From positions 1 to 27,666 of the forward strand of contig SCRB01000803.1 of assembly GCA_004299545.1 (NCBI GenBank): 27,666 nt of DNA. Direction: 5' to 3'. Numbering within the stretch: the first letter of the stretch is position 1; each line of letters opens with the position of its first letter. The notes beneath the pieces are model-generated. The model was not told the DNA's origin and ran no database searches. It worked only from the letters and a program-made list of their open reading frames with translations. Of the stretch, positions 8,850-27,666 are shown one piece after another. The translations under genes were made by a program, and so were the position numbers. The stretch comes from Rhizobiaceae bacterium. GTDB taxonomy: Bacteria > Pseudomonadota > Alphaproteobacteria > Rhizobiales > Rhizobiaceae.

Positions 8850-8877
8850 GCTGCCCTCCGTCACAGCGGGACCCGCT

Positions 8878-9969: not shown

Positions 9970-9979
9970 TTGTTAATGC
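9966..9979. promoter_or_regulatory. putative IolR/RpiR operator, importer site 2
   Basis: GCAAT-TGTT-AATGC is a second copy of the motif, one base off perfect symmetry. It overlaps the proposed -35 box. Its centre is 29 bases from that of site 1, about three helical turns, so two bound dimers would lie on nearly the same face. Confidence 0.5.
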
Positions 9980-10023
9980 AAATCCGGCTTCCACCAACGC
10001 CGTGGCTGCCGGCATAGGCATGG

Positions 10024-12131: not shown

Positions 12132-12132
12132 C

Positions 12133-13086: not shown

Positions 13087-13895
13087 CAACAGGCGCCTTT
13101 TTCGAACTTCGTCTCCATTGCGCCGACAAGCGTCCGGAACCGGGCCACGCTCGCTCCGGCGGCCGCGGCGAGCAGCCGCGTGTCGCCCGAAACGGTCGTC
13201 ATATCGAAACCCCAGCCGATGGCGCGCGTGGCATATTCCGGGGTGCCGCAGTGCAGAGCGGCGCGGATGCCGTGCCTCTTGCAGGCGCCGACGATCGTCT
13301 GGAGCGCGCCGATCATCTCCGGCTCCTCCCGATCGAAGCCGGGGGCAAGGGCGCCTTGCGAGAGACCGAGCGTCAGGTCGGCCGGACCGACATAGAGACC
13401 GTCGAGGCCAGGGGTCGCGGCGATGGCGTCGAGGTTGCGCATCCCTTCCGCCGTTTCGATCATGGCGAAGCCGAGGATCTCGCCGTTCGCCTGCGACCCG
13501 TAATCGGCTCCGGCGGCAAGCGAGACGCGGGTGGGGCCGAAGCTTCTCTGCCCCAGCGGCGGGTAGCGCAGGTAGCTCGCGAACTCCGCCGCCTGGGCCG
13601 CGGTGCTCACCATCGGGCAGATCACGCCATAGGCGCCGGCGTCCAGCACTTTCATGATGATGCCCGGTTCCAGCCACGGCACCCGCGCCATCGGCACCAC
13701 GCCCGAGGCGCGCATCGCCTGCATCATGGGCAGCACGCTGGAGTAGTCGAGCGCGCCGTGCTGGACGTCGACGGTGACAGAATCATAGCCCTGCGCCGCC
13801 ATGATTTCCGCGGTGAAGGCGTTGCCGATCGAGCACCAGCCGTTGATCGTCGGGGTTCCTTCGGCCCAGAGCCGCTTCAGCTTGTTCGGTATCAT
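13086..13895 (-). CDS. HpcH/HpaI-family class II aldolase
   Basis: This 269-residue protein is a metal-dependent aldolase of the HpcH/HpaI family, which cleaves 4-hydroxy-2-keto acids into pyruvate (or another 2-keto acid) plus an aldehyde. Visible are the catalytic base region VDVQHGALDY, the substrate-binding arginine in MARVPW, the metal ligands in IETAEGMRNLD (Glu) and VGPADLTLGLS (Asp), and the C-terminal helices. Histidine is normally preceded by Glu (EHG); here it is QHG. The start is uncertain: ATG 13895 gives the family's usual N-terminus, but GTG at 13910 is in frame and no strong ribosome site distinguishes them. It is the first gene of a leftward operon, divergent from iolD across a 170-base control region. 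Confidence 0.88.
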   Translation of the reverse strand: MIPNKLKRLWAEGTPTINGWCSIGNAFTAEIMAAQGYDSVTVDVQHGALDYSSVLPMMQAMRASGVVPMARVPWLEPGIIMKVLDAGAYGVICPMVSTAAQAAEFASYLRYPPLGQRSFGPTRVSLAAGADYGSQANGEILGFAMIETAEGMRNLDAIAATPGLDGLYVGPADLTLGLSQGALAPGFDREEPEMIGALQTIVGACKRHGIRAALHCGTPEYATRAIGWGFDMTTVSGDTRLLAAAAGASVARFRTLVGAMETKFEKGAC

Positions 13896-13998
13896 CTCGG
13901 AGAGCACCACCTGCGCCAGTTCACATCAGGATAATCGCGGAGACCTCCCTATCGGGTGCTGCGCTTCCCGATTCCGGCCATTTCCTCGATCTAGAAAT

Positions 13999-14012
13999 GC
14001 AATGAATATTGC
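13999..14012. promoter_or_regulatory. putative IolR/RpiR operator in the divergent control region
   Basis: GCAAT-GAAT-ATTGC is a perfect 5+4+5 inverted repeat. It covers the proposed -10 box of the leftward promoter. More CAAT/ATTG elements follow directly: the palindromes TATTGCAATA at 14007-14016 and TCAATATTGA at 14028-14037. Confidence 0.65.
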
Positions 14013-14031
14013 AATAAAATCCATTTGTCAA
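14003..14031 (-). promoter_or_regulatory. promoter of the aldolase/dehydrogenase operon
   Basis: On the minus strand a perfect -35 box TTGACA (14026-14031) is separated by 17 bases from TATTCA (14003-14008). The -10 lies wholly inside the 13999-14012 inverted repeat, which suggests direct repression. Confidence 0.6.
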
Positions 14032-14054
14032 TATTGAGTGCTTACGCGTATGAT
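14025..14054 (+). promoter_or_regulatory. promoter of iolD
   Basis: TTGTCA (14025-14030) and TATGAT (14049-14054), each one mismatch from consensus, are separated by 18 bases. The -35 box overlaps that of the leftward promoter on the opposite strand, and TCAATATTGA begins within it. The start would give a leader of about 20 bases before the iolD ribosome site. Confidence 0.55.
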
Positions 14055-14080
14055 CCGTCGTCCCGTCGCGGAGGAAACCA

Positions 14081-15952
14081 ATGGCCGAGAAGACGATCCG
14101 ATTGACCACGGCACAGGCGCTGGTGCGCTGGCTGACACAACAGGCGACCGAGATAGACAGCGTTCGCGTGCCTCTTTTTGCCGGCGTATTTGCGATCTTC
14201 GGACACGGCAACGTCACCTGCCTCTCGGAGGCGCTGGAGACCGTGCAGGATAGCCTGCCCACATGGCGCGGACAGAACGAACAATCCATGGCGCTTGCGG
14301 CCATCGGCTTCGCCAAAGCCAAACGCCGGCGGCAGATCATGATCGCGACTTCCTCAATCGGCCCCGGCGCGCTCAACATGATGACGGCGGCAGGCACGGC
14401 CCATGCCAATCGTCTGCCCGTCTTGCTGATCGCGGGCGATACCTTCACCAACCGCCTGCCCGATCCCGTGCTGCAACAGGTCGAGCACTTCAACAATCCG
14501 ACGATAACGGTGAATGATGGTTTCAAGGCCGTCACCCGCTACTGGGACCGGATCACCCACCCGGCGCAGGTCATCACCTCGCTGCCGCAAGCCGTGGCGA
14601 CGATGCTCGATCCAGCCGATTGCGGCCCGGCCTTTATCGCGCTCCCGCAGGATACGCAGGAAATCGCCTTCGATTATCCGGCTTCCTTCTTCGAGCCGCG
14701 GCTATGGAGCGTGCCGCGCCCGCGGCCCGACCGGAAACGACTCGCCGAGGCTGCGGCTCTCCTGAAGACCGCTGAGAAGCCGCTGATCATTTCCGGCGGC
14801 GGCGTCCGCTATTCGCTGGCCGAAGAGGCGGTGGCGGAGTTCGCGGTGAAGCGCGGCGTTCCGATCGTCGAGACCATGGCCGGCAAGGGCGGCGTCACCC
14901 ATTACCACCCTGCCCATGCGGGACCGATCGGCATCATCGGCTCGACATCGGCCAACACGCTGGCGGCCGAAGCGGACGTGATCCTGGCCATCGGCACCCG
15001 GCTGCAGGACTTCACCACCGGCTCGTGGACGGCGTTCAGCCCGCACGCGCAATTCATTTCCATCAACGCCGCACGCTTCGATGCCGTGAAGCATTGCGCG
15101 CTATCGGTGGCCGGCGACGCGCTGGAGACGGTGACGGAACTTGACGCGGCGCTCGGCGAATGGCGCGCGGACCCAGCATATATGGCTCGCGCGCAGGCTC
15201 TCTTCAGGGAATGGGATGCGCTGCTCGACACGCATCAGGCGCCTAACAACCAGCCGGTGCCGACATATGCGCAAGTGGTCCACGCGGCAAACCAGGCGGC
15301 TGGCGAGAACGACACACTGATTTCCGCCGCGGGCGGCCTGCCGGGCGAGGTGGCGAAGGGCTGGCGGGTCAAGGCGCCGAACACGTTCGACCTCGAATTC
15401 GGCTTTTCCTGCATGGGCTACGAAATACCCGCCGGGTGGGGCCATGCCATGGCGAATTCCGGCCCCGGCGGCCTTGGCGGTACGCCGATCGTCATGGTGG
15501 GTGACGGCACCTATCTGATGATGAATTCCGACATCTATTCGACGGTGCTTTCCGGCCATAAGATCATCGTCATCGTCTGCGACAACGGCGGCTTCGCCGT
15601 CATCAACCGCTTGCAGCAGGCCAAGGGCGTGCCGGGCTTCAACAATCTTCTGGCCGATTGCCGGGTGCGCAGTCCTTCCGAGCCGCTTCACGTCGATTTC
15701 GCCAGGCATGCCGAAGCCATGGGAGCCGAGGCGCGGCATTGCGCGAGCCTTGCAGAGCTTGTTGCAGCCCTTGAATGGGCGAAGGAGACAGACCGGACGA
15801 CCGTCCTTTCCATCGCTACGGACGCGTATGCCTGGGTCCCGGGCGACGCCGACTGGGATGTCGGCGTGCCCGAGGTCTCGACGAGGGAAACCGTGCGGAA
15901 GGCTCGACAGCAGCAGCAGGAGATTCGCGCCAGACAGCGCGTCGGCGTGTGA
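14081..15952 (+). CDS. iolD: 3D-(3,5/4)-trihydroxycyclohexane-1,2-dione hydrolase IolD
   Basis: This 623-residue ThDP-dependent enzyme matches IolD, which hydrolyses the ring C-C bond of trihydroxycyclohexanedione to 5-deoxy-glucuronate in inositol catabolism. The N-terminal block AIFGHGNVTCLSEAL and RGQNEQSMA (catalytic Glu67) are characteristic. The ThDP/Mg motif starts with GDGTY (474-478) and ends with Asp501-Asn502. EFGFSCMGYEI near residue 439 is an IolD signature. A strong GGAGG lies 6 bases before the ATG. It heads the rightward unit, divergent from the aldolase operon. No iolB, iolC, iolE or iolJ accompanies it in the window, so its product must be handled by distant genes or, if its substrate differs, by the local aldolase and dehydrogenases. 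Confidence 0.93.
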   Translation: MAEKTIRLTTAQALVRWLTQQATEIDSVRVPLFAGVFAIFGHGNVTCLSEALETVQDSLPTWRGQNEQSMALAAIGFAKAKRRRQIMIATSSIGPGALNMMTAAGTAHANRLPVLLIAGDTFTNRLPDPVLQQVEHFNNPTITVNDGFKAVTRYWDRITHPAQVITSLPQAVATMLDPADCGPAFIALPQDTQEIAFDYPASFFEPRLWSVPRPRPDRKRLAEAAALLKTAEKPLIISGGGVRYSLAEEAVAEFAVKRGVPIVETMAGKGGVTHYHPAHAGPIGIIGSTSANTLAAEADVILAIGTRLQDFTTGSWTAFSPHAQFISINAARFDAVKHCALSVAGDALETVTELDAALGEWRADPAYMARAQALFREWDALLDTHQAPNNQPVPTYAQVVHAANQAAGENDTLISAAGGLPGEVAKGWRVKAPNTFDLEFGFSCMGYEIPAGWGHAMANSGPGGLGGTPIVMVGDGTYLMMNSDIYSTVLSGHKIIVIVCDNGGFAVINRLQQAKGVPGFNNLLADCRVRSPSEPLHVDFARHAEAMGAEARHCASLAELVAALEWAKETDRTTVLSIATDAYAWVPGDADWDVGVPEVSTRETVRKARQQQQEIRARQRVGV

Positions 15953-16141
15953 GATCGTGGAAGCGATGCCGGGGGTAGCTCCAGCACGCGGTGGAACGGC
16001 GATCTCCCAAACTTTCCAGTGACGTGTTTTTGCGGAGGATCCAAACGCGATCCCGCCATTGGAGATGGCGAAAAAAGAGCATAAGGAACGCATGCGCGCG
16101 ATGGCGCCGGCAGAATAACTGGCAGGATAAGAGGTCGTCCA

Positions 16142-16954
16142 ATGAACCGTATTGATGGAAAGATCGCCGTGATCACCGGCGCAACCCAGGGTCTCGGCGC
16201 GGCGATCGCGCGGCTCTTCGCCGAAGCCGGCGCCGGAGGACTCGTCATCGTCGGCCGCAACCGCGCCAAAGGCGAGGCAGTAGCCAAGGAGATCACCGCC
16301 CGGACAGGCGTGAAGGTCGAGATGGTGGCGGCCGACCTCGGCAGGATCGAGGATGTGCGCGCGATCATTCCCGCGACCGAGAAAGCTTTCGGCCGGGTGG
16401 ATATCCTGGTCAACGCGGCAGGCCTCACCGATCGCGGCAACATGCTCAACACCAGCCCCGAGCTTTTCGACCGGATGATCGCGGTCAACACCCGCGCCCC
16501 CTTCTTCCTGATCCAGGATGCGGCGAAGGTCATGGACCGCATGGGGATCGAGGGACGGATCGTCAATATCGGCACCACCTCCGCCCGGGCGGGCCAGCCG
16601 TTCCTGGCGCCCTATTCCGTCTCGAAGGGCGGGCTCGGCACGCTGACCCGCCACGCCGGCTTCGCCCTCATGCGCAACCGCGTCCACGTCAACCAGCTCG
16701 ACATCGGCTGGATGAATTCCGACCACGAACGAGAACTCGTGCTGTCGGAGACGGGCGATCCGGATTTCATAGACCGGGCAGCAGCGGGCAAGCCCTTCGG
16801 CCGTATCCTCGACCCCAAGGAGGTGGCGCGCGCGGTGCTCTGGATGGCCTCGGACGACGCCGGCATGATGACGGGCGCGGTGATCCAGTTCGACCAGTCG
16901 GTATGGGGCGGTTACGACGACGCGCCGGTTCCGGCCAAGCGGCTGGAGGCTTGA
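16142..16954 (+). CDS. short-chain dehydrogenase/reductase
   Basis: The 270-residue protein is a classical SDR. Its cofactor motif is TGATQGLG (residues 12-19), NAAG is at 91-94, and the catalytic set is Asn116, Ser147, Tyr158 and Lys162 (YSVSK). The C-terminus VIQFDQSVWGGYDD is a variation on the usual ending of the sugar-alcohol and ketoacid reductase groups. A good AAGAGG site precedes the ATG by 7 bases. It follows iolD by 189 bases on the same strand, so it may be cotranscribed or have its own promoter. In the cyclitol context it may oxidise or reduce a ring hydroxyl or a ring-opened intermediate; the substrate is not evident. Confidence 0.88.
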   Translation: MNRIDGKIAVITGATQGLGAAIARLFAEAGAGGLVIVGRNRAKGEAVAKEITARTGVKVEMVAADLGRIEDVRAIIPATEKAFGRVDILVNAAGLTDRGNMLNTSPELFDRMIAVNTRAPFFLIQDAAKVMDRMGIEGRIVNIGTTSARAGQPFLAPYSVSKGGLGTLTRHAGFALMRNRVHVNQLDIGWMNSDHERELVLSETGDPDFIDRAAAGKPFGRILDPKEVARAVLWMASDDAGMMTGAVIQFDQSVWGGYDDAPVPAKRLEA

Positions 16955-16967: not shown

Positions 16968-16998
16968 AAAAAATGAGCGCTTTTCAGCGCGCGCTCAT
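16968..16998 (-). terminator. intrinsic terminator of the RpiR regulator gene
   Basis: ATGAGCGC (16973-16980) and GCGCTCAT (16991-16998) form a perfect 8-bp stem with a 10-base loop. Read on the minus strand it is followed at once by six T. The stem includes the regulator's own stop codon. It lies between the convergent SDR and regulator genes. Confidence 0.75.
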
Positions 16999-17864
16999 GG
17001 TTGCGTAACGACGGGAATGCGCGGCTGCTCTGCTTTCTGCAATTTTGCGGCTAGAGCAACCGTCAGCGCCTGTGCCAGACACATCGGCGCGGCGAGCGAG
17101 CGCGAGAAGGTGTACTGGTGCTCGGGAATGGGGAACAGCACGGTCGCGTTCTTGGCGAGCGGCGACAGCGTCGAATCGGAAATGGCGATGATCGGGACAC
17201 CCTTGGCCGCGGCGCTCTCGACGATATTCACCACCTCGGTCGCATAGAACCGGAAGGAAACCGCGAAAAGTAGGTCCGATGAGCGGACGGCGCGCACCAT
17301 ATGGGTGGCAAGGCCCCCGCTGGCATCCAGCAGGACCACCCGCTTGCCGAGCATGGTCAGGATATAGCGCATCAATTCGACAATCGGCGCGGACCGGAGT
17401 TGGCCGACCAGATAGATAGTATCCGCCACCTCCATCATCGCTACGGCCTTGTCGATGGTCTCCGGCAGGATGTCGGTCAACAACTCCTGCAATGTCGCGA
17501 TGTCGCGCAAGACGAGATCGTGAAGAAACGCCCCGCCTCCGGCGTTGCCGCGGTTGCTCAACTCTGCCTCGAGTGCCTTGACGCGCGCCTCGAAACCAGG
17601 CGCCGCCGTCGACAGGCGTTTCTGGAAAAGCGTCTGGAGATCCTTGAATCCGTTATAGCCGAGCATTTGCGCGAAGCGCACGAAGCTTGAAGCATGAACC
17701 CCGCACACGTCGGCGATCGCGTTCAGGGACATGACTGCGACGTCGTTGGGATTTTGCGTCAGATAAACAGCGATCCGCTGGTATGATTTGCTCATCTCGT
17801 CGTGGCGCTCGTGGATGAGGCGAATGAGGTCTTCATAATCGTTCGGAATCTGCTGGCGTTGCAT
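16995..17864 (-). CDS. RpiR-family transcriptional regulator, probable IolR
   Basis: The 289-residue protein has an N-terminal RpiR helix-turn-helix domain (about residues 12-85: MSKSYQRIAVYL, then VMSLNAIADVCGVHASSFVRFAQMLGYNGF). Its C-terminal SIS sugar-phosphate-isomerase-like domain (about 125-280) includes VADTIYLVGQLRSAP, LLFAVSFRFYATEVVNIVE and GVPIIAISDSTLSPLA. In rhizobia the inositol regulator IolR is of this family. An inverted repeat GCAAT-TTTT-ATTGC lies 12 bases upstream of the ATG, with GAAGG as ribosome site, so the protein probably represses its own gene. The same motif marks the importer and aldolase/iolD control regions, making this the likely regulator of the whole cyclitol locus. 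The SIS domain presumably senses a phosphorylated or keto intermediate. Confidence 0.9.
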   Translation of the reverse strand: MQRQQIPNDYEDLIRLIHERHDEMSKSYQRIAVYLTQNPNDVAVMSLNAIADVCGVHASSFVRFAQMLGYNGFKDLQTLFQKRLSTAAPGFEARVKALEAELSNRGNAGGGAFLHDLVLRDIATLQELLTDILPETIDKAVAMMEVADTIYLVGQLRSAPIVELMRYILTMLGKRVVLLDASGGLATHMVRAVRSSDLLFAVSFRFYATEVVNIVESAAAKGVPIIAISDSTLSPLAKNATVLFPIPEHQYTFSRSLAAPMCLAQALTVALAAKLQKAEQPRIPVVTQP

Positions 17865-17982: not shown

Positions 17983-18780
17983 TCACCGGACCATGGCTTT
18001 GGTCGAGAGCCGCGACAGGCCGAGAAGCACCACCATCGTCGCCACGCCGAGGATGGTGGCCAGCGTCGCCGCGTCGAAGATCGCACCGCGATCGGAGAGT
18101 GCGAAAATCTTCACGGGCAGTGTCACCCAGCCGGGCGGATAGACCATCACGGTTGCCCCGAGTTCGCCCATCGACAGCGCGAAGGACAGGCTGAAGGCAC
18201 CGACCAGGTAAGGCAGCAGAAGCGGCAGCGTAACCCGGCGGAGCCGGTAGAACGGCCGCGCGCCGAGGCTTTCGGCCACCTGTTCGCAGTCCGCCGGTAT
18301 CCGCGCCAGGCCCGCCGTTACGTTGCCGTAGGTGAAGGCGGAAATCAGTATGAAATGCGCGATCAGCACGATCCAGGTGGTGCCGTTCAGCAGGAAAGGC
18401 GGCTTGCTGAAGGCGACGAGCAGGGCGAGACCGACGGAAACCGACGGAACGGCGCTCGGAATGAAGAAGAGAAGATCGAGCACCCTCTTCGAGGGTCCCC
18501 TCATGCCGCGCAACGCTAGCGCCGCCCAAGTGCCGCACAGCAGCGCGGCGGCGCTCGCCAGAACGCCGGTCAGCAGGCTGGCCTTCAGGGCGTCGTAGGA
18601 GTCGGTATGGAACGCCCGGGAATAATGGACCAGCGTCATGTTGCTCGGCAGGATATCGTTCCACTGGCCGCTGAAGCCGGCGAGCACGATGACGCCGACC
18701 GGCAGGCCGTAGACGACCAGGAAGAGCGGCACGGTGAGCGCCCATGCGGCCAATCGCCAGGGCTTAGACCAGACCAGCAC
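17983..18780 (-). CDS. phnV: 2-aminoethylphosphonate ABC importer, permease PhnV
   Basis: This 265-residue inner-membrane permease has about six hydrophobic segments, starting with WALTVPLFLVVYGLPVGVI near residues 13-31. The family's cytoplasmic EAA-type loop is near residues 170-190 (CEQVAESLGARPFYRLRRVTLPL). It pairs with PhnU to form the channel. The GTG start at 18780 overlaps the end of phnU by 17 bases. It is the last gene of the importer operon. A small perfect hairpin (TGACGC-GAG-GCGTCA, 17971-17985) covers its stop codon but has no T-run. Assignment as PhnV rests on gene order after a clear PhnS. Confidence 0.85.
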   Translation of the reverse strand: MLVWSKPWRLAAWALTVPLFLVVYGLPVGVIVLAGFSGQWNDILPSNMTLVHYSRAFHTDSYDALKASLLTGVLASAAALLCGTWAALALRGMRGPSKRVLDLLFFIPSAVPSVSVGLALLVAFSKPPFLLNGTTWIVLIAHFILISAFTYGNVTAGLARIPADCEQVAESLGARPFYRLRRVTLPLLLPYLVGAFSLSFALSMGELGATVMVYPPGWVTLPVKIFALSDRGAIFDAATLATILGVATMVVLLGLSRLSTKAMVR

Positions 18781-19642
18781 GCCTGCCTCCGAAATGCGCT
18801 ATGGCCAGCCGGTAGAGGCTGTAAAGCCCGAGCGACAGGGCGACATTGACCACGGCTATGACGCAGGCGGTCGTATAATCGAACTCCTGGATGGCCTTGC
18901 TATAGATGAGAAGCGGCAGGGTGATGACGTCCTTGGCGCCGATGAACAGGACGATGCCGAATTCGTTCACAGTGAGAAGCAGGCAAAGGCTGCCGCCGGC
19001 GACCAGGGCGGGAAGCGAGGCCGGCAGGAGGATCTGGCGGATGATGCGCAAGGGCCTGGCGCCAAGGCTGCTGGCAACTTCGATCTGCGCCTGATCGAAC
19101 GTCGCGAACGTCGCCAGCAGGGGCCGCATGACGAAAGGCGTGTAGACCGTCGTTTCCGCCAGGATCACGCCCCATTGCGAATAGAGGAAGTCGATCGGCG
19201 GCAGGTCCAGGCTGAAGACGTGCATCAGCGTCTCGTTGAGCAATCCTGCCGAGCCGTAGATGAAGGTGAAGGCCAGCGTCACCAGGAAGGTCGGCAGCGC
19301 GATCACCGTGTCGATCAGCCGTCCCGCCAGCTTCGCCCCCGGAAAGGGCACAAAGGCGATGACCAGCGACAGCACGAAACCGAGCACGATGCAGCCGGCA
19401 GTGGCGCTGACCGCGATGACCACGGTGTGGTAGAGGCCGTCGAGGAACCGGCTCGACGTCAACACCTGTTCGAAGGTGGCGAGCGAAGGCGCGTCCTCGC
19501 CGAACGAGGCGCGCACGATCAGGCCGAGCGGATAGAAGAACAGCACCGCCAGCACCAGAAGCGGCGGCACGACCCACAGGCCGTCTATATTCGGCCGCTG
19601 TGCCGGTGCGGCGGTGAGCGCCGTGTCAGCCACGGCCCGCAT
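18764..19642 (-). CDS. phnU: 2-aminoethylphosphonate ABC importer, permease PhnU
   Basis: The 292-residue protein is a polytopic permease of the same class as PhnV, with a first membrane span near residues 24-42 (WVVPPLLVLAVLFFYPL) and an EAA-type loop near 180-200 (IEVASSLGARPLRIIRQILLP). It overlaps phnT by 17 bases and phnV by 17 bases, so the importer genes are translationally linked. ATG 19642 is chosen; a GTG three codons later is possible. Longer frames to 19687 would run deeper into phnT and look unlikely. Confidence 0.85.
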   Translation of the reverse strand: MRAVADTALTAAPAQRPNIDGLWVVPPLLVLAVLFFYPLGLIVRASFGEDAPSLATFEQVLTSSRFLDGLYHTVVIAVSATAGCIVLGFVLSLVIAFVPFPGAKLAGRLIDTVIALPTFLVTLAFTFIYGSAGLLNETLMHVFSLDLPPIDFLYSQWGVILAETTVYTPFVMRPLLATFATFDQAQIEVASSLGARPLRIIRQILLPASLPALVAGGSLCLLLTVNEFGIVLFIGAKDVITLPLLIYSKAIQEFDYTTACVIAVVNVALSLGLYSLYRLAIAHFGGRRAGLV

Positions 19643-20780
19643 CCTCCGGCACCAGCGTGACTTCCGCGGGATTGAAATGCACCGCAATCGTTTCGCCGAT
19701 GCGCGGCGGGTTTGCCATCGGCGCGGATGTCATGCGTGCCTCTTCGCCTCCGATATTGAGCGTGATGTTTTGTACATCGCCTTGCCATTGCACGCTGAGC
19801 ACGGTCCCCGAGATGGAATTCGGTTCCTCGGCGGCACGGGAAAACCTGAAATCATGCGGCCTGATGCAAAGCAGGCATTCCTTGTCCGCAGGTATGCCAT
19901 GGTGATTGCGCGCCGATAGCATCGCTTGCCCAAAGCGCACCCTGGCCATCTGGCCGCCATCAGGTCGCAGGTCCGTAACAGGCAGCAGGTTTGCACGGCC
20001 GAGGAATTCCGCGGCGAAGCGGTTCGGCGGATGGCGGAAAAGCGACTGGGATTCGCCGAACGCCTTCAACCTGCCGTCCCGCATGATGCCGATATGATTG
20101 GCCAGCGTCAGGGCCTCGCTCTGGTCATGGGTGACGTAAAGGACGGTGAGATTCGGCAGGTCGCGATGAAGTTTCGCCAACTCGTCGAGCATCGAGCGGC
20201 GGATTTGTGCATCGAGTGCCGAAAGCGGTTCGTCGAGAAGCAGGACCTGCGGCTTCGGCGCCAGCGCCCTGGCGATGGCGACACGCTGTTGCTGCCCGCC
20301 GGACAGTTCACGCGGATAGCGTTTCGCGTAGGCCGACATGCCGACAATAGCCAGGCATTCGGGCACACGGTTGCGGATCACTTCCTCGCCGGCACCATGA
20401 GCACGCAGACCGAACGCGACATTCTCCTCCACCCGCATATGCGGAAAGAGCGCATAATTCTGCACCACCATGCCGATCTGGCGATCATATGGCGCCAGAT
20501 AGGTGACGTCGCGGTCGCCGATAAGGATGCGGCCGGCCGAAGGGCGCACGAAACCTGCCACCGCGCGTAGCGCGGTGGTCTTGCCGGAGCCGGACGGCCC
20601 GATGAGGGCCACGATCTCACCCGGATTAACAGTAAGATTAAGAGATTCAAGAACGGTGAGCGCGCCATAGGCGACCGACACGTTATCGAAGGTGATCCGG
20701 CTGCCGCCCGATATGGTGGCCGCCGGGGACACAACGCTTTCCGTGCGGGGCGTCCTTTCCACGACAGCCGTTTGCGCCAT
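19626..20780 (-). CDS. phnT: 2-aminoethylphosphonate ABC importer, ATP-binding protein PhnT
   Basis: The 384-residue ATPase has an N-terminal ABC domain and a C-terminal TOBE-like domain (about residues 300-384), as in the spermidine/iron/phosphonate importer group. Walker A is GPSGSGKT (61-68), the Q-loop is in MVVQNYALFPHM, the signature is LSGGQ (159-163), Walker B is LLLDEP (180-185), and the switch histidine is in VTHDQSEA. It has an N-terminal extension of about 28 residues before the ABC fold. Its ATG shares one base with the phnS stop (TGATG). It energises uptake by PhnU/PhnV. Confidence 0.9.
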   Translation of the reverse strand: MAQTAVVERTPRTESVVSPAATISGGSRITFDNVSVAYGALTVLESLNLTVNPGEIVALIGPSGSGKTTALRAVAGFVRPSAGRILIGDRDVTYLAPYDRQIGMVVQNYALFPHMRVEENVAFGLRAHGAGEEVIRNRVPECLAIVGMSAYAKRYPRELSGGQQQRVAIARALAPKPQVLLLDEPLSALDAQIRRSMLDELAKLHRDLPNLTVLYVTHDQSEALTLANHIGIMRDGRLKAFGESQSLFRHPPNRFAAEFLGRANLLPVTDLRPDGGQMARVRFGQAMLSARNHHGIPADKECLLCIRPHDFRFSRAAEEPNSISGTVLSVQWQGDVQNITLNIGGEEARMTSAPMANPPRIGETIAVHFNPAEVTLVPEDAGRG

Positions 20781-21808
20781 CAGTTGCCCGATATGGCCTG
20801 GTTGTAGGCGGCTACGTCTTCCTTCAGGGAGCCCAGCACCTTGCTCCAGTCCGGCGACCATATCTCCACTCCCTTCAGCATGGCGTTGAGCTTCTTGAAG
20901 TTATCGTCGTCGGGCTTCACGTCGCTGCGCACCGGAAAGCCTTGAGCAACGGAGCTGACCTCGCCTTGAGCGTCTTTCGACAGCAGGAAATCGATCAGCT
21001 TCTTGCCATTATCGGTGTTCGGGCCTCCCTTCACCAGAGCGATGTAATAGGGCAGCGCAAAAGCCGTCTTCTTGCCGTTCGGCCCGGTCGGGAAGAATAT
21101 CTTGATGTTGGGATTATCGGCCGACTGCGACATGTTCATCTGCATGTCGCCATTGGCGACATAAAGCTCGCCCTTGTTCACCAGCGCCGTCAGCTTGCCG
21201 GTCGAAGCCGATGGCCCGAGATTGTTGACCTGCAACTTCTTAAGATAGGCGAGGCCCTTTTCCTTGCTGCCGAAAGCGTGAAACGCCTGTAGCATCAGCG
21301 CGGTCCCATCCCCTGCCTGGCCGGGCGTCGAATACTGGATCTTCTGCTTGAATTTAGGATTGAGCAGATCCTCGTAGGTTGCCGGCGCTTTCTTCAGGAT
21401 GGCGGCGTTATAAATGAAATTCGGATAGTTGTTGACCATGGCATAGAAACGGCCGCCGGCGTCCTTGTCGCGGCTTGCGATCTTGTCGGCCCCCGCCGGC
21501 GTGTAAGCCGCGAGCAGGCCGTCCGCCGCCGCCTTCTGCATGAACGGCGGCAGGGTGACGAGCACGTCGGCCTGGGTGTTGGACTTTTCCTTGGCAATGC
21601 GGTCGACGACGCCGCTCGACCCCGCCTCGACATACTGGACCTTGATGCCGGTTTTCTTGGAAAAGGCCGCAAGCTGGTTGCCGAACCAGCTCGGATCGCC
21701 GTCATGCAGGCCGTCGGCGCTGTAAAGCGTGACGATACCGGCGGCTTCCACGGGCATCGCGCTTGCTGCCAGAAGGCAGGCTGCCACCAGTGCCAATCTC
21801 GTTTTCAT
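20780..21808 (-). CDS. phnS: 2-aminoethylphosphonate-binding periplasmic protein PhnS
   Basis: The 342-residue protein carries a signal peptide (MKTRLALVAACLLAASAMP, cleavage near residue 22-23) and closely matches the known PhnS of enterobacteria. Shared blocks include VTLYSADGLHDGD, QADVLVT-PPF, LQYSTPGQA-DGTA (here IQYSTPGQAGDGTA), GPSASTGKLTALVNKGE, YVANGD-QMN, and a C-terminal PVRSDV. It captures AEP or a related aminophosphonate in the periplasm. A GGGGAG site lies 4 bases before the ATG. The 281-base gap upstream carries inverted repeats and is the likely promoter of phnSTUV. No PhnR-type regulator or phnW is in the window. Confidence 0.93.
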   Translation of the reverse strand: MKTRLALVAACLLAASAMPVEAAGIVTLYSADGLHDGDPSWFGNQLAAFSKKTGIKVQYVEAGSSGVVDRIAKEKSNTQADVLVTLPPFMQKAAADGLLAAYTPAGADKIASRDKDAGGRFYAMVNNYPNFIYNAAILKKAPATYEDLLNPKFKQKIQYSTPGQAGDGTALMLQAFHAFGSKEKGLAYLKKLQVNNLGPSASTGKLTALVNKGELYVANGDMQMNMSQSADNPNIKIFFPTGPNGKKTAFALPYYIALVKGGPNTDNGKKLIDFLLSKDAQGEVSSVAQGFPVRSDVKPDDDNFKKLNAMLKGVEIWSPDWSKVLGSLKEDVAAYNQAISGN

Positions 21809-21924
21809 GCTACTCCCCTTTGCTTGGCGTTTGAGTGTTCCCGAAGGCCGAAAATATCGTCCATGGCCGCTGTCTTGCCGCAGCATGGGCCATTCTCCCT
21901 GCCGAATGTGTTGAGAAGCGAACG

Positions 21925-21948
21925 ATAAGTAAAATCCATTTATCTTAT
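21925..21948. promoter_or_regulatory. inverted repeat upstream of phnS
   Basis: ATAAG (21925-21929) and CTTAT (21944-21948) are arms of an imperfect inverted repeat in an AT-rich stretch about 120 bases before phnS. Its centre, TAAAATCCATTT (21930-21941), also occurs exactly in the aldolase/iolD control region at 14015-14026. It could be part of the phnS promoter or operator; boxes are not clear. Confidence 0.35.
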
Positions 21949-22000
21949 GAAGCAATAGGTTTGATTTATGGTAGGCTCTTCCCCCGCGCGCGCCCTCGAC

Positions 22001-22012
22001 GCCAACGTTGGC
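22001..22012. promoter_or_regulatory. perfect 12-bp palindrome upstream of phnS
   Basis: GCCAACGTTGGC is fully self-complementary. AACGTT-centred palindromes are typical of LacI/GalR-type operators. It lies between the dehydrogenase stop and phnS, about 195 bases before the phnS start. No LacI-type gene is in the window. Confidence 0.35.
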
Positions 22013-22089
22013 ACGGCTGAATGACACATGGATGACAAGCCTGGGGCGGGAAATCACACAAGTTTCCACGCCGTTTTCGAAGCGGTCCG

Positions 22090-23100
22090 TCAGGCGAAAG
22101 CAACGTGCGTTTTCTGCATACGCAAGCGCGGATCGGTCGAGCGGATGGTGACCGGCTTGCCGTCGAGGATTTCGAAGCAACGAGCGAGCGTATCCTCTTC
22201 GAGCCGCCGCATCGCCTCATGGGTGAAGAACGTCAGATGCGGAAAGAGGATGACGTTGTCGCGACCGAACAGCGCGCTCATTGGATGACCGGACTTCCGT
22301 AGCGGTTCCACCGAGTAGACGTCGAGCCCCAAGCCGCCGATCCGCTCGCCCACCACGGCCTCAACAAGAGCCTCCTCGTCTATGATGGCCCCGCGAGAGA
22401 CGTTGACCATGATGGCCGATGGCTTCAGGCACGCGATCTCGGCCCGGCCGATCAGGCCACGCGTCTCATCGTTCAGCACGCAATGGATCGAAACGAAATC
22501 GCTGGCTGCGAGCATCGCCTTCAAATCGTTCACCGGTTCGACGCCGATCGCTTTCAATTCGTCGGGATCGGTATGCGGGCTATAGGCCAGCACTTTCGCG
22601 CGGAAACCCTGGCCGACCATACGCGCCATGGAACGGCCGATCCTGCCGCACCCTACCAATCCTACTGTCGAGCCGGCAATGTCATGGCCCAGCCATCGCT
22701 GTTGCGGCCAGATCCAGCCCGTCTCTTCCGTGGCGCGCGAAATCTCAGGCAGGCGCTTGGCGAGTGCGATCATCAGTGCGAACGCGCCCTCGGCCACGGT
22801 CTCCTCCGCATATTCCGGCACATTGACCACCGGAATTCCCCGCCGCATTGCCGCGGGGATATCGATCGCATCGATGCCGACCCCGTACTTGACGATGCCC
22901 TTGAGTTTTTTCGCTGCGTCGATCACGCGCGCCGTCACCGGCGTGTAGCACATCAGCAGAAGGTCGGCGTCCGCGATGGCCTCGCAGAAATCCGCTTCCG
23001 GAATACCATCGGGCAAGGTGACGAGGCTGACGCCCCGGGCGAGAAGCCCGGCATCGACGCCCGGACATTCCAGTTCGCTGTCGGTGCGGACGGCTTTCAT
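22090..23100 (-). CDS. D-isomer-specific 2-hydroxyacid dehydrogenase (phosphonate-locus paralogue)
   Basis: The 336-residue protein is another NAD-dependent D-2-hydroxyacid dehydrogenase. Its substrate domain has VKYGVGIDAIDI (residues 70-81), its cofactor motif is GCGRIG (150-155), and its catalytic residues are Arg236 in NVSRGA, Glu265 in YSVEPL and His288 in FPHLTF. It is related to phosphoglycerate-dehydrogenase-like enzymes and not close to the copy at 12133-13086. ATG 23100 begins one base after the stop of the PLP enzyme, so the two are translated together. This placement suggests a substrate from the same phosphonate pathway, perhaps a hydroxy- or keto-phosphonate such as phosphonolactate/phosphonopyruvate; that is inference only. 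Phosphite dehydrogenase is another member of the wider family, but no signature for it was recognised. Confidence 0.87.
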   Translation of the reverse strand: MKAVRTDSELECPGVDAGLLARGVSLVTLPDGIPEADFCEAIADADLLLMCYTPVTARVIDAAKKLKGIVKYGVGIDAIDIPAAMRRGIPVVNVPEYAEETVAEGAFALMIALAKRLPEISRATEETGWIWPQQRWLGHDIAGSTVGLVGCGRIGRSMARMVGQGFRAKVLAYSPHTDPDELKAIGVEPVNDLKAMLAASDFVSIHCVLNDETRGLIGRAEIACLKPSAIMVNVSRGAIIDEEALVEAVVGERIGGLGLDVYSVEPLRKSGHPMSALFGRDNVILFPHLTFFTHEAMRRLEEDTLARCFEILDGKPVTIRSTDPRLRMQKTHVAFA

Positions 23101-23101
23101 G

Positions 23102-24496
23102 TCAACCCGCCAGCACCGCGTCCTCGACAATCGAAAGCGCCCGGTCGAGATCGTCCTTCGCAATCACCAGCGGCGGTGACAGTGTCAGCACGTTGCCGGC
23201 GCTGATCTTGAAGGACAGGCCGTTCTCCAGGCAGCGATAGTAGACGCGTTCGGCAAGCGCATGGTTGGGCCGGAACGTGTCCCTGTCCTCGACCATCTCG
23301 ACGCCGAACATCAGGCCCCGGCCCCTTACGTCGCCGACGAAAGGCGAATGCGCCATCAGTTCGCGCATCCGCTCCATGGCGCGTTGGCCGAGTTCGGCAG
23401 CGCGCTCTGCCAGGCCTTCCTCGCGCACGATGGCGATGGTGGTGAGCGCCGCGCGCGTCGTCACCGGATTCTTCTCATGCGTGTAGTGGCCGATAGCGTA
23501 ATCACCCGCGACATCGAGGTCGCGGCGCGCGACAACGGCTGCAATCGGCAAGATGCCGCCGCCAAGCGACTTGCCCATCACGATAATGTCCGGCGTGACG
23601 CCGTCATGCTCGGAAGCGAAGAATTTGCCCGTCTTGCCGAGGCCGGTCGGGATCTCATCGAAGATCAGAAGCGTGCCGTGGCGGTCGCAGGCCTCACGCA
23701 CCGCCTTCCAGAAGCCCGGCGCCGGAACGAGCGGCGTGGCGCGCATGGGTTCGGCAACGAAGGCGGCGAAATCCCCTTCCCGGCCGAGCACATAGGAAAT
23801 CATGTTGGCGCATGCCCGCGCTGACTCCTCGAGTGAGGAGGTTCCATAAGGGCAATTGTGCGGCGCCCAGAGTGCGACATGCTCGGTGCCGGGCAGAAGT
23901 GGGCCGGCGATGCCGGACCGGAACGTCGCCTCGCCGCCTACGCTTGCGGCACCGAAGCCGGCGCCGTGGAAAGCATCCCAGAAGGAAAGCGTCTTGAACC
24001 GGCCCGTCGCGGCACGCGCCACCTTCAGCGCCACCTCGATGGCGTCGGAACCACCTGTCGTGAACAGCACCTTGCCGAGATCGCCCGGCGCGAGGCGACC
24101 CAACGTCTCGGCAAGCTCGACGGCCGGTTCGCAGGTGAAGCGGCGCGGCGCGAAAGGCAGTTCGTCCATTTGCGCCCGGATCGCTTCCTTCAGGCGCGGA
24201 TGGCCGTAGCCGATATGATGCACGCTGTTGCCATGGAAATCCATGGTTCGCCGCCCGGCCATATCCTCGATCCAGATGCCTTCGGCCCTGGCGATGGCAG
24301 AGACGCAAGGGCTGGAAAGCGATTGATGGAGAAAGGCGTCGGCGTCGCGCTTGAGAAGCGCCCTCGAGGGGGCATGGTCCTGGCGCGCCTCCCAGTCCTG
24401 CCTGGCCTGGGCCTTGTTGGACTCACCCTCCGTATGGATTGCCGTCATCTGTCCCATTTTTGCCTTGCGAATTCGCGATCCGCGTCCTTTGTCCAT
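23102..24496 (-). CDS. class III PLP enzyme: aminophosphonate transaminase or PbfA-like ammonia-lyase
   Basis: This protein of up to 464 residues has the class III aminotransferase fold. The PLP-binding aspartate is Asp280 in FDEIPTG and the Schiff-base lysine is Lys309 in MGKSLGGG; GGSDAIE (149-155) holds the phosphate. The N-terminal segment LLKRDADAFLHQSLSSPC and MDFHGNSVHHIGYGHP resemble, as far as I recall, (R)-1-hydroxy-2-aminoethylphosphonate ammonia-lyases (PbfA), which form phosphonoacetaldehyde for PhnX. A plain AEP or other amine transaminase is the alternative. The start is uncertain: ATG 24496 overlaps the upstream stop (TGATG), but ATG at 24457, with AAGG in front, or ATG at 24448 would remove an unusual basic N-terminus. 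It sits between the FAD/GcvT enzyme and a hydroxyacid dehydrogenase. Confidence 0.85.
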   Translation of the reverse strand: MDKGRGSRIRKAKMGQMTAIHTEGESNKAQARQDWEARQDHAPSRALLKRDADAFLHQSLSSPCVSAIARAEGIWIEDMAGRRTMDFHGNSVHHIGYGHPRLKEAIRAQMDELPFAPRRFTCEPAVELAETLGRLAPGDLGKVLFTTGGSDAIEVALKVARAATGRFKTLSFWDAFHGAGFGAASVGGEATFRSGIAGPLLPGTEHVALWAPHNCPYGTSSLEESARACANMISYVLGREGDFAAFVAEPMRATPLVPAPGFWKAVREACDRHGTLLIFDEIPTGLGKTGKFFASEHDGVTPDIIVMGKSLGGGILPIAAVVARRDLDVAGDYAIGHYTHEKNPVTTRAALTTIAIVREEGLAERAAELGQRAMERMRELMAHSPFVGDVRGRGLMFGVEMVEDRDTFRPNHALAERVYYRCLENGLSFKISAGNVLTLSPPLVIAKDDLDRALSIVEDAVLAG

Positions 24497-26973
24497 CAGG
24501 CCGCTTTGTCCGCTGGAACCGGGGGCCTGATCTTTTCTCCCTTCGGGTCGTAGGCAGGTCTCAGGTGAGGCCTGGCCGCATAGCGCGTGCCGGCGACTTC
24601 GATCTCGAAATGGCCTTCATCCAGGAAGCGCGCATCGACGCCGTCGCCATTTTCGACGAGGCCCAGTCCGACCGCGCGGCCAAGACTGTGGCCATAGGCG
24701 GCGGAACGAAGTTCGCCGGTGGGCTCACCGTTGCGCAGGATCAGTTCGCCTCCCCACAGCATCGGACCGCCGTCATCGAGCGTGAACTGGACGATACGCT
24801 TTTGGAGCGGCTTGCCTTTCGCCGCGGCGATAGCGTCACGTCCGATGAAACCTCCCTCCTTGCCGAGATCGAGGGCAAAGCCCAGTCCAGCCTGCCAGGG
24901 ATTGATGTCGGGTGTCAGTTCCCTGCCCCAGGCGCGAAACCCCTTCTCCAGCCTCAGCGCCTCGATCGCGTAATAGCCCGCGTCGATCAGACCCAAATCC
25001 TTGCCCGCGTCCAGGAGAGCTTCGTAAGCGCCGACGGTGAATTCCGCCGGAACGATCAATTCCCATCCCAATTCGCCGACATAGGTCATGCGGTTGGCAA
25101 TGCAAATGCCGTAGCCGACGTCGATCTGTCTGTGCGTCGCAAAGGGGAACGCCTCGTCGGAAAGATCGTCAGCCGTCAGCCGCGAGAGGACTTTGCGCGC
25201 TTTCGGTCCCATTACTCCGAGCACCGCGTAGGAAGAGGTCACGTCGGTCAGGAACGCATGCGCGCCGGCGGGGATATGCCGGGCGATCCAGTCGAAATCG
25301 CGAATCGGCTGGGCAGACCCGGTCACGATCAGGAACCTGTCCGTGGCAAGCCGCAGGACGGTGAGGTCGCTTTCATAGCCGCCGCGCTCGTTGAACATGC
25401 CGGTATAGACGCTGCGTCCGATGGGCACGCCGATCTGGGCGCCGCACAGCCGGTTGAGGACGGCGCAGGCGTCGCGGCCCTGCAGCAGGAGCTTGGCGAA
25501 AGAGGTCTGGTCGAAGATCGCGGCAGCCTCGCGCGTCGCCTTCATCTCGCGGCCGACCGTATCGTGCCAGTTTTGCCGACCGAACCCGTACGCCGTCTCC
25601 GGGCCTTCGCCATCCATGGCGAACCAGTTGGCACGCTCCCAACCCATTTTCGAGCCGAAACATGCGCCCTTGGCGAGGAGCCGGTCATAAAGCGGCGAGC
25701 GTCGCAGCGGCCGTCCGAGATCGAGCTCACGGTTCGGCCAGGGCGTGGCGTAATGCAGACCGAGCGTTTCCTTGACGCGGTCGTGCAGCCAGCGCTGGTT
25801 GTTGTTGAAGGAGGCGAAGCGGCGGATATCGACCGGCCACAGGTCCATGGTGGGCTGGCCGTTGACGATCCACTCGGCCAGCGCACGGCCGGCACCGCCG
25901 GCGCTGGCGATGCCCATCGAATTGAAGCCCGCGCCGACGAAGAAGTTCCTCAGTTCAGGCGCCTCGCCCAGAATGAAATTATTGTCGGGCGTAAAGCTTT
26001 CCGGGCCGTTGTAGAATTTCTTGACCTCGGCCTGTTCGAGCTGCGGCACACGCACCAGAGCGTTCCGCATCAGTATCTCGAACTGATCCCAATCGTCGGG
26101 CAAGAGCGCGAACTCGAAATCGTCGGGAATGCCGTCCATCCCCCAGGGTTTGGCCTGCGGCTCGAAGCCCCCCATCACCAGGCCGCCGACTTCCTCCTTG
26201 AAATAGATATAGCCGTCGGGATCGCGCATCACCGGCAGGTCGGGGTGCACGCCATCGATCCTGCCGGTGACGATATACATATGCTCGGCGGAGTGTAGCG
26301 GCACGGCGACCCCGCACATCTTGCCGACCTTGCGCGCCCATTGCCCGGCGCAGTTGACGACGATACCGGCGGCGATGTCGCCCTGGTCGGTAGTGACGCC
26401 GGTCACCGCACCGTCCTTCGTCGTGATGCCGGTCACGCGCACCCGCTCGATGATCGTTGCACCGCCCATGCGGGCACCTTTGGCAAGGGACTGCGTCAGA
26501 TCGGTGGGGTTCGCCTTGCCGTCGCCCGGCAGCCACACCGCGCCGACGAGATCGTCTGTCGCCATCACTGGCCAGAGATCGCCGGCCTCCTTCGGTGAGA
26601 TGACCTCGACAGCCACACCCTGCGCCCGCGCGGAGGCCGCGGTGCGCTTCAATTGCGTCATGCGGTCTTTCGTCCGCGCGACGCTGAGCGAACCGCAATT
26701 CCTCCAGCCGGTAGCAAGCCCGGTTTCTGCTCCCAGGCGGGCATAGAGCTCGGTCGAATAGCGTACCAGCGCTGTCATGCTGGACTGACTGCGCAATTGG
26801 CCCACCAATCCCGCCGCATGCCATGTTGTGCCGCCGCTGAGTTGCCCCTGTTCCAGCAGCACCACGTCCGACCACCCAAGCCTGGTCAGATGGTAGGCGA
26901 CCGAGCACCCGATCACGCCGCCGCCGATGACGACGACATGGGCCTGGGTGGGAAAGGGAGCATGTGCTGGCAT
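24496..26973 (-). CDS. FAD-dependent oxidoreductase with C-terminal GcvT domain (dimethylglycine/sarcosine dehydrogenase family)
   Basis: The 825-residue protein has the two-part architecture of dimethylglycine and sarcosine dehydrogenases. An N-terminal DAO-type FAD domain (about 1-370) has the dinucleotide motif VVVIGGGVIGCS (13-24) and TTWHAAGL, where His52 matches the histidine that carries covalent FAD. A middle FAO_M linker follows, then a C-terminal GcvT and GcvT-C barrel (about 430-815; LTDVTSSYAVLGVMGP, YVGELGWELIVP, LRLEKGFRAWG) that binds tetrahydrofolate and captures formaldehyde. Such enzymes oxidise N-methyl groups. Placed between phnX and the PLP gene, it may demethylate an N-methylated aminophosphonate; this is inference. 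ATG 26973 gives the normal N-terminus; an open frame extends upstream but through a hairpin and into phnX. Its stop overlaps the next start by one base. Confidence 0.88.
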   Translation of the reverse strand: MPAHAPFPTQAHVVVIGGGVIGCSVAYHLTRLGWSDVVLLEQGQLSGGTTWHAAGLVGQLRSQSSMTALVRYSTELYARLGAETGLATGWRNCGSLSVARTKDRMTQLKRTAASARAQGVAVEVISPKEAGDLWPVMATDDLVGAVWLPGDGKANPTDLTQSLAKGARMGGATIIERVRVTGITTKDGAVTGVTTDQGDIAAGIVVNCAGQWARKVGKMCGVAVPLHSAEHMYIVTGRIDGVHPDLPVMRDPDGYIYFKEEVGGLVMGGFEPQAKPWGMDGIPDDFEFALLPDDWDQFEILMRNALVRVPQLEQAEVKKFYNGPESFTPDNNFILGEAPELRNFFVGAGFNSMGIASAGGAGRALAEWIVNGQPTMDLWPVDIRRFASFNNNQRWLHDRVKETLGLHYATPWPNRELDLGRPLRRSPLYDRLLAKGACFGSKMGWERANWFAMDGEGPETAYGFGRQNWHDTVGREMKATREAAAIFDQTSFAKLLLQGRDACAVLNRLCGAQIGVPIGRSVYTGMFNERGGYESDLTVLRLATDRFLIVTGSAQPIRDFDWIARHIPAGAHAFLTDVTSSYAVLGVMGPKARKVLSRLTADDLSDEAFPFATHRQIDVGYGICIANRMTYVGELGWELIVPAEFTVGAYEALLDAGKDLGLIDAGYYAIEALRLEKGFRAWGRELTPDINPWQAGLGFALDLGKEGGFIGRDAIAAAKGKPLQKRIVQFTLDDGGPMLWGGELILRNGEPTGELRSAAYGHSLGRAVGLGLVENGDGVDARFLDEGHFEIEVAGTRYAARPHLRPAYDPKGEKIRPPVPADKAA

Positions 26974-27024
26974 TTGCTGGCCTAGGCGTGGGAGTCTTGG
27001 TTCGGTTGCGGTGACGGATGGAAG

Positions 27025-27087
27025 AAAAATCCTGCTCGATCCGCCCGTTCCGGCGCTGCTTTCGCCCCCTTCTCGGCCGGAACGGGC
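27025..27087 (-). terminator. 12-bp-stem hairpin between phnX and the FAD/GcvT gene
   Basis: GCCGGAACGGGC (27076-27087) and GCCCGTTCCGGC (27043-27054) are perfect 12-base arms around a 21-base loop, starting just after the phnX stop. On the minus strand five T follow 13 bases further on (27025-27029). The T-run is displaced, so it may be a partial terminator or an attenuator that separates phnX from the downstream genes. Confidence 0.55.
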
Positions 27088-27091
27088 CGGT

Positions 27092-27666
27092 TCACGGCTT
27101 CTCGCCGCGCGCAAGGCGGGCGTTGATATCCTCGATCACCGGCTCGATGTCGGCGATGCTGTCGAGGACGTAATGCGCCCCGGCGCGGCGCAGCAGATCC
27201 TTGGAGTGCTCGTGGCGGTAGGCAATCTCCTCGGTCGACATCGCCTTGTCCGCGTCGGGGGTGTCCATGTCCATGTAGTTCGAGTAGCGCGACACGCCGA
27301 TGCCCCAGCAGCCGGCGTTCAGCGCCTCTCCGACGCCAGAGACGGTGTCGTCGACCTTGACCACCGACTGGATGGTGTGGATACCCAGCAGATCGAGGTT
27401 CTTGTAGACCATGTGCGGATTGGGACGGGCGCCGTGGATCACCTCGTCGCCGGCCACGGTGGCGTCAGGGTTGAAGCCCTGCTTGCGGGCGGCCTCCAGC
27501 AGCACGTCCACCATCGAGCGGGTAAAGCCGGTGGTGGCACCGATCTTGATGCCGGCCTTCTGCAGCCGCTGGGTCACTTCGGCCACGCCGGGCAGCAGGT
27601 CGGTGTACTGCGGCAGGCAGGTGACCTGGGCCGGTACGAAGTCGGCGAACATCGCGTCCACGTCGG
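27092..27666 (-). CDS. phnX: phosphonoacetaldehyde hydrolase PhnX, C-terminal part (5' partial)
   Basis: The reading frame is open to the right edge, so about 190 residues are present and roughly the first 90 are missing, with the nucleophilic aspartate and Schiff-base lysine. Residues match phosphonatase of the HAD superfamily: the DVDAMFADF cap segment, LLPGVAEVTQRLQKAGIKIG, the motif ATTGFTRSM, ARPNPHMVYKNLDLLGI, VVKVDDTVSGVGEALNAG, and the C-terminal RRAGAHYVLDSIAD block. PhnX splits phosphonoacetaldehyde into acetaldehyde and phosphate. The DDTV motif is the form usual in proteobacterial PhnX. The GTG at 27661 is internal. It lies 118 bases upstream of the FAD/GcvT gene, with a strong hairpin between them. 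Confidence 0.92.
   Translation of the reverse strand, partial: DVDAMFADFVPAQVTCLPQYTDLLPGVAEVTQRLQKAGIKIGATTGFTRSMVDVLLEAARKQGFNPDATVAGDEVIHGARPNPHMVYKNLDLLGIHTIQSVVKVDDTVSGVGEALNAGCWGIGVSRYSNYMDMDTPDADKAMSTEEIAYRHEHSKDLLRRAGAHYVLDSIADIEPVIEDINARLARGEKP

Follow-up and report, generated by a model that had tools for sequence, protein, structure and literature searches.

The closest described systems to the locus treated here are the phnWX- and phnWYA-type gene clusters for the degradation of 2-aminoethylphosphonate (AEP), which Table 1 of PMC12366243 gives together with pbfA, pbfF and 'pbfC', one phnWX-type case being that of Acidimangrovimonas sediminis. Among the enzymes of such clusters, PbfC of Azospirillum sp. 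B510 is an N-methyl-AEP dehydrogenase; according to excerpts of PMC10590968, in which dimethylglycine dehydrogenase (DMGDH) is named as a tree reference, PbfC and PbfD yield methylamine and phosphonoacetaldehyde (PAA) by nuclear magnetic resonance, with no formaldehyde seen. PbfA is stated in excerpts of PMC8154272 to be unable to transaminate AEP, and PbfF, described in 2025, is a nicotinamide adenine dinucleotide (NAD)-dependent racemase of 1-hydroxy-2-aminoethylphosphonate (HAEP) from family PF02826, whose gene was always clustered with pbfA, in most cases as its direct neighbour, in Alphaproteobacteria; M. plurifarium provided the enzyme that was assayed, and M. ciceri is among the organisms given for pbfF in Table 1 (excerpts of PMC12366243). 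Here, we present an AEP-family operon carried by a 27,666-nucleotide stretch of DNA from a Rhizobiaceae bacterium (GenBank assembly GCA_004299545.1, contig SCRB01000803.1; hereafter the window), which is one entire contig of a 4.59-Mb, 1067-contig assembly that is 85% complete. We focus on a fusion of a flavin adenine dinucleotide (FAD) enzyme with GcvT-type folate domains, hereafter the FAD/GcvT protein.

The operon represents AEP-family degradation of a known kind, composed mostly of recently described enzymes, with the FAD/GcvT fusion as its one under-described part. Starting at the right edge of the window and proceeding along the minus strand, its genes are phnX (cut by the contig end), the FAD/GcvT fusion, pbfA, a pbfF candidate, phnS, phnT, phnU and phnV, all the genes named in an earlier interpretation of the letters alone (the sequence-only reading) being present and sharing this strand. 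The locus has in common with the described phnWX and phnWYA clusters (excerpts of PMC12366243) its gene content, the adjacency of pbfA and pbfF and an origin in the Hyphomicrobiales, but differs from them in that phnX occupies the position of phnY in the operon of a same-genus genome (G003), and in that its FAD enzyme carries a folate domain.

We interpret this set, with a probability of about 0.6, as a hydrolytic AEP operon with side entries, in which PhnSTUV would import AEP-like compounds, PbfF would interconvert S-HAEP and R-HAEP, and PbfA would convert R-HAEP to PAA. The FAD/GcvT protein would oxidise the N-methyl group of N-methyl-AEP and transfer the methyl to tetrahydrofolate (THF), giving AEP and 5,10-methylene-THF; PhnW, from a gene past the contig edge, would transaminate AEP to PAA, and PhnX would cleave PAA to phosphate and acetaldehyde. 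This interpretation rests on gene identities, colinearity, cross-species linkage and conserved catalytic residues; the substrate and product of the FAD/GcvT protein, the racemase activity of the PbfF candidate and the presence of PhnW past the edge are what we infer. A dedicated folate-coupled N-methyl-AEP demethylase would constitute a fourth entry into AEP catabolism, with a bond choice opposite to that of PbfC and PbfD, a proposal that we favour with modest confidence. The candidate demethylase is spread among rhizobia and roseobacters, including Sinorhizobium meliloti 1021, whose copy on pSymB is 78% identical to that of the window.

Domain architecture and catalytic residues of the FAD/GcvT protein

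The FAD/GcvT gene (24496..26973, minus strand) encodes 825 amino acids with the DAO, FAO_M, GCV_T and GCV_T_C domains, the architecture of DMGDH and dimethylglycine oxidase (DMGO), in agreement with the DMGDH-like fusion proposed by the sequence-only reading. The protein is collinear with both enzymes, aligning over nearly its full length with human DMGDH (5l46, 511 bits) and DMGO (1pj5, 379 bits), and the identity of its FAD domain reaches 34% with human DMGDH, 32% with DMGO and 29% with B510 PbfC. Its residues H231, Y257 and D536 align with His225, Tyr259 and Asp552 of DMGO, and H52 with the flavin-linking histidine of DMGDH and DMGO; we take these positions to be the covalent-FAD histidine (H52), the active-site histidine and tyrosine, and the folate-domain aspartate. 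Each of the four is kept in 86/86 orthologues and in 8/8 paralogues of 43-44% identity, as well as in the three own-genome paralogues with an aligned FAD domain, except for a Glu at the D536 position in one of them. The latter position is also Glu in human DMGDH and is Ala in the 3gsi row, the aspartate of the window protein being as in DMGO. What distinguishes the protein from DMGDH and DMGO is its phosphonate gene context.

To our knowledge, the FAD-folate fusions of known function (DMGDH, sarcosine dehydrogenase, DMGO and 4-methylaminobutyrate oxidase) all remove N-methyl groups, and DMGDH and DMGO perform on dimethylglycine the same chemistry that is proposed here for N-methyl-AEP. The conversion of N-methyl-AEP to AEP and methylene-THF would thus be the best reading of the protein. 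The 22 orthologues sampled for a phylogeny formed one clade (94/95); PbfC, DMGO, DMGDH and one own-genome paralogue were long branches, so their placing in the tree was not used. Another residue, R61, was considered as a phosphonate-binding arginine, as it is kept in 86/86 orthologues, 8/8 of the 43-44% paralogues and B510 PbfC, and in 0/5 references. This candidate was rejected because R61 also occurs in 10/21 further FAD-domain proteins, and the genes of all ten are either on a different contig from the AEP-linked copy of their genome or separated from it by roughly 1 Mb or more.

B510 PbfC resembles the FAD/GcvT protein in being a PF01266 enzyme from an AEP cluster, where its gene lies between phnX and pbfA. 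However, it is a stand-alone PF01266 protein, with no GcvT/folate domain, with Arg at the H52 site and with Ser at the H231 site, whereas the window protein is fused to FAO_M, GCV_T and GCV_T_C and in this departs from the characterised B510 enzyme. The 29% identity between them goes along with a differing active-site pattern, and the PbfC branch is too long to be placed. No close stand-alone PbfC orthologue (E <= 1e-20) was found in M. ciceri, M. carmichaelinearum, Shinella, Ensifer, Hoeflea, S. meliloti, G003 or the own genome; the best match across these eight genomes (36% identity) was a frame of fused length, frames of stand-alone length reaching at most 32%. A search of plasmids with B510 PbfC (E <= 1e-60) recovered only B510 itself.

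M. ciceri is nevertheless given as having pbfC (excerpts of PMC12366243), yet the only PbfC-like protein in the fetched part of its cluster is the FAD/GcvT fusion, so that the fusion is probably included under the published PbfC label. Neither folate nor GcvT is mentioned in the main text of PMC10590968 or of PMC12366243, and our literature search found no publication combining pbfC with GcvT, nor any on rhizobial N-methyl-AEP demethylation.

Genomic linkage to phosphonate genes

The genomic context of the FAD/GcvT gene was surveyed in the best 80 of 290 relatives from one contig-collection scan (66-83% identity), in flanks of up to 10 kb per side. Phosphonate genes were found beside it at 71/80 loci, 65 of them with phnW, phnA, phnY or pbfA and six with transporter homologues only. 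The phnW gene itself was present on 59 loci, and 18 of the 21 genomes without a locus phnW have a phnW homologue (E <= 1e-50; 16 at 71-80% identity, two at 53%), bringing the total to 77/80 genomes. The three genomes without one (G076, G081 and G082) amount to 2.7-3.2 Mb, their loci deriving from metagenome-assembled genomes. These figures support the phosphonate role that the sequence-only reading had assigned to the protein, and they answer its reservation that the gene might keep the same neighbours in genomes devoid of phosphonate genes. As AEP, if released as product, needs PhnW, the presence of phnW in 77/80 genomes points to demethylation to AEP. None of the 80 loci showed phnX. As fetched, only 26 of them carry pbfA, so that HAEP is not a fixed companion of the FAD/GcvT protein's substrate.

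The same phosphonate context is confirmed by the annotated copies on plasmids of S. meliloti, Ensifer and Shinella. As a control within the own genome, the nine other places with GcvT domains are all off the window's contig, which alone carries pbfA (E <= 1e-150) and a phnX-strength match; in M. ciceri, the FAD/GcvT paralogues nearest in sequence are separated from its AEP cluster by roughly 1 Mb or more. The window copy forms one clade (99/98) with those of L032, L054 and L105, three loci in which the FAD/GcvT gene directly follows phnY. A DeoR/GlpR-type regulator gene stands 5' of the FAD/GcvT gene on the same strand at 65/80 loci and on the opposite strand at 4; none was detected at the remaining 11/80, including L032, L054 and L105.

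Several loci displayed additional features. A second FAD/GcvT paralogue (43-44% identical) accompanies the gene on 7/80 loci (L012, L019, L028, L037, L039, L049 and L059), such pairs perhaps serving stepwise demethylation. On a plasmid of Leisingera thetidis (L096:1595-7567), genes for a heterotetrameric sarcosine oxidase (soxB- and soxA-like, each scoring just below its family cut-off) directly precede phnW-phnA-phnY-pbfA, together with a gene whose annotation is aromatic-ring-hydroxylating dioxygenase subunit alpha, a betaine-like set that could demethylate more methylated AEP. Locus L050, titled Bacillus subtilis strain SK6B4, has the same layout as L051 (Pseudochrobactrum asaccharolyticum) and is probably mislabelled or a contaminant.

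PbfA and the candidate racemase PbfF

The pyridoxal phosphate (PLP) enzyme encoded downstream of the fusion (23102..24496, minus strand) passes the PbfA equivalog model NF049939 (665.3 bits, cut-off 525). By this score the enzyme is PbfA, the R-HAEP ammonia-lyase, which bears out its description as a PbfA-like class III PLP enzyme and argues against the grouping with unrelated amine transaminases that had been kept in mind. It is 93% identical to its G003 counterpart, and PbfA was detected at E <= 1e-150 in 6/61 genomes (the own genome and 60 relatives). A dehydrogenase homologue adjoins pbfA in four of these six (own, G003, G042 and G054) and was not found near pbfA in G038 and G053. In G042, the pair formed by pbfF and pbfA (L107:9996-12493) was the only match to the phosphonate genes searched for in an 18.7-kb extract.

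The gene adjoining pbfA in the window (22090..23100, minus strand), which has a counterpart next to pbfA in G003, encodes a protein with the PF02826 and PF00389 domains. The D-2-hydroxyacid dehydrogenase family named in the sequence-only reading is hence correct, its probable identity as the HAEP racemase PbfF having been missed. The candidate is 85% identical to the G003 copy and 77% identical to the product of the gene beside pbfA in M. ciceri WSM1271, and was found on 16/80 of the scanned FAD/GcvT loci, all 16 also with pbfA. Its residues R236, E265 and H288, presumably the Arg236/Glu265/His288 catalytic set of D-2-hydroxyacid dehydrogenases, are kept in 21/21 sequences. It thus shares with the described racemase both the PF02826 family and the adjacency to pbfA, the 77% identity referring to the M. 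ciceri gene and not to the assayed M. plurifarium protein. With both PbfF and PbfA in place, either enantiomer of HAEP would be channelled to PhnX.

The contig edge and the same-genus operon

The phnX gene (27092..27664, minus strand) encodes the C-terminal 190 amino acids of phosphonoacetaldehyde hydrolase in a frame that is open at the contig end. It matches positions 77-251 of the TIGR01422 profile with 189.5 bits against a cut-off of 220, a lower score being expected for a truncated copy of which 76 profile positions fall past the contig. In G003, the operon is arranged as phnW-phnA-phnY-FAD/GcvT-pbfA-pbfF-phnSTUV, accompanied by a divergent gene that by its sequence is LysR-type regulator-like. 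The DNA of the window and of G003 aligns at 83% identity between 26983, ten bases ahead of the start of FAD/GcvT, and 17980, three bases beyond phnV; the alignment consists of two blocks, interrupted by 172 unmatched bases (21955-22126) at the pbfF end and in the pbfF-phnS gap. Since the shared DNA ends before phnX, phnY and everything ahead of it are replaced in the window by a segment with phnX. Such a swap on the phnY side within one genus suggests that the PAA-cleaving module is interchangeable.

Close phnX homologues were present in 7/397 genomes drawn from the order (own included), and phnW lies directly upstream of phnX in three of the six others (G328, G110 and G140). Among the remaining ones, G045 and G052 have phnX close to the end of contigs only 3-4 kb long, and G410 showed no phnW in the 19 kb taken around phnX; there, the phnX homologue (61%; L143:8227-10068) follows a gene that, judged by its first residues, is beta-keto acid cleavage enzyme-like. 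The nearest phnX homologue found, that of G328 (74% identical), has phnW directly upstream and pbfA directly downstream. The G328 phnW query had no match in the own assembly and matched in 5/5 other genomes; phnA was likewise not found in the own assembly. The N-terminus of phnX was equally absent from it, the same query matching in 4/4 other phnX genomes. Because a part of phnX that must adjoin the window is itself missing, the sequence past the edge is not in the assembly, and not finding phnW there is weak evidence. We consider it likely that phnW is located past the contig edge, just upstream of phnX. With the window cut inside phnX and a colinear G003 operon that includes phnW, the view that the locus was built for a modified compound and 'not plain AEP' is not supported.

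Alternative explanations and implications

Several observations weigh against our interpretation of the operon and of the FAD/GcvT protein as an N-methyl-AEP demethylase. Nine of the 80 loci (L047, L052, L053, L067, L072, L076, L077, L084 and L087) have no phosphonate gene, and the regulator of DeoR type at 65/80 loci indicates that the FAD/GcvT gene is often a separate unit. Some of the counted phnW homologues are only 50-54% identical to the query, and finding phnW has little discriminating power, as AEP clusters commonly contain it. Most of the tested FAD/GcvT proteins for which no phosphonate link was shown also retain D536 and the histidines, which consequently speak for folate-coupled amine oxidation and not for a given substrate; moreover, no assay of an FAD/GcvT enzyme of this group was found in the publications consulted. 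With regard to the window itself, phnW was not found in the own assembly, 85% complete, where the best TIGR03301 score (43.6 bits) is below the cut-off, and the join at phnX, within 0.7 kb of the contig end, could reflect a misassembly.

Other chemistries were also considered. The FAD/GcvT protein could act like PbfC, oxidising the C2-N bond of N-methyl-AEP to give PAA and methylamine, with a folate domain of structural use only. The methylamine and PAA formed by PbfC and PbfD (NMR data in excerpts of PMC10590968), the same genomic context of the two proteins, and the M. ciceri cluster, given as having pbfC and in which the fusion was the only PbfC-like protein seen, are in line with such an activity, which we nonetheless regard as unlikely: the FAD domain is closer to human DMGDH (34%) than to B510 PbfC (29%), PbfC has no GcvT domain and carries Arg where the flavin-linking His would be and Ser in place of H231, and the folate-domain Asp is kept in 86/86 orthologues. 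Also doubtful, and to a slightly greater degree, is the demethylation of another N-methyl amine, such as N,N-dimethyl-AEP, N-methyl-HAEP or a compound that is no phosphonate but whose use is regulated jointly with that of phosphonates. The DeoR-type regulator, the nine loci without phosphonate neighbours and the paralogue pairs, which could mean stepwise demethylation, would fit this possibility. It is opposed by the strong linkage of the gene to AEP genes and by the phnW homologue found elsewhere in seven of the nine genomes without phosphonate neighbours (G078, G079, G080, G083, G084, G085 and G086); in the other two, G081 and G082, none was found, and four of the nine loci (L067, L072, L084 and L087) are contigs of 3-12 kb. 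N-methyl-HAEP in particular is unlikely to be the main substrate, as pbfA was not seen on 54/80 loci as fetched and occurs on only 26.

The sequence-only reading had proposed a route free of PhnW, in which the PLP enzyme would remove the amine from demethylated AEP. It had in its favour that phnW was found neither in the window nor in the assembled genome. This route is however highly improbable, given that PbfA is unable to transaminate AEP (excerpts of PMC8154272), that the same-genus G003 operon includes phnW, and that the phnX N-terminus is likewise unassembled although its query matches in all four other phnX genomes searched.

Should the FAD/GcvT protein be the folate-coupled N-methyl-AEP demethylase that we favour, two competing chemistries would exist for one natural compound. 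The first, releasing methylamine, would dispense with PhnW; the second would depend on PhnW and supply C1 metabolism, the methyl group being saved as methylene-THF and AEP returned for PhnW. This would explain why, in rhizobia and roseobacters, an FAD/folate gene goes along with AEP clusters, and would split this gene from the PbfC label that such genes probably carry now.

Transporter genes, gene spacing and neighbouring locus

The transporter genes follow the pbfF candidate on the minus strand and encode the components of an AEP ATP-binding cassette (ABC) transporter: the substrate-binding protein PhnS (20780..21808; TIGR03227, 406.2 bits, cut-off 395.3), the ATPase PhnT (19626..20780; TIGR03258, 433.6 bits, below the cut-off of 499.15), and the permeases PhnU (18764..19642; TIGR03226, 375.8 bits, cut-off 283.45) and PhnV (17983..18780; TIGR03255, 274.3 bits, below the cut-off of 358.7). 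PhnS and PhnU thus exceed their TIGRFAM cut-offs; PhnT and PhnV are under theirs, yet these models are their best matches, in a complete phnSTUV order.

The joins by one base previously described within the operon are real for part of it. The gap between pbfA and the dehydrogenase homologue is 1 base, and the FAD/GcvT gene overlaps pbfA by 1 base provided that pbfA starts at 24496, the G003 copy starting at the equivalent of 24457. With 118 bases between phnX and the FAD/GcvT gene and 281 between the dehydrogenase homologue and phnS, these tight joins do not span the whole operon. A search of the whole window against Rfam at gathering thresholds gave no match.

To the left of phnV, an RpiR gene (16995-17864) adjoins a short-chain dehydrogenase/reductase (SDR) gene and is one gene away from iolD. 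It was considered as a regulator of the phosphonate operon, which is unlikely given its position outside the block shared with G003 and so close to iolD; no RpiR homologue was found in the 20 kb around the G003 operon. The adjoining region (6965-16954) holds iolD (812.6 bits, cut-off 715), the SDR gene, and two genes whose products score below their family cut-offs, a binding protein of rhizopine type and an ATPase of a sugar ABC transporter. It is a probable inositol or rhizopine-type catabolism locus, to which the RpiR gene probably belongs.

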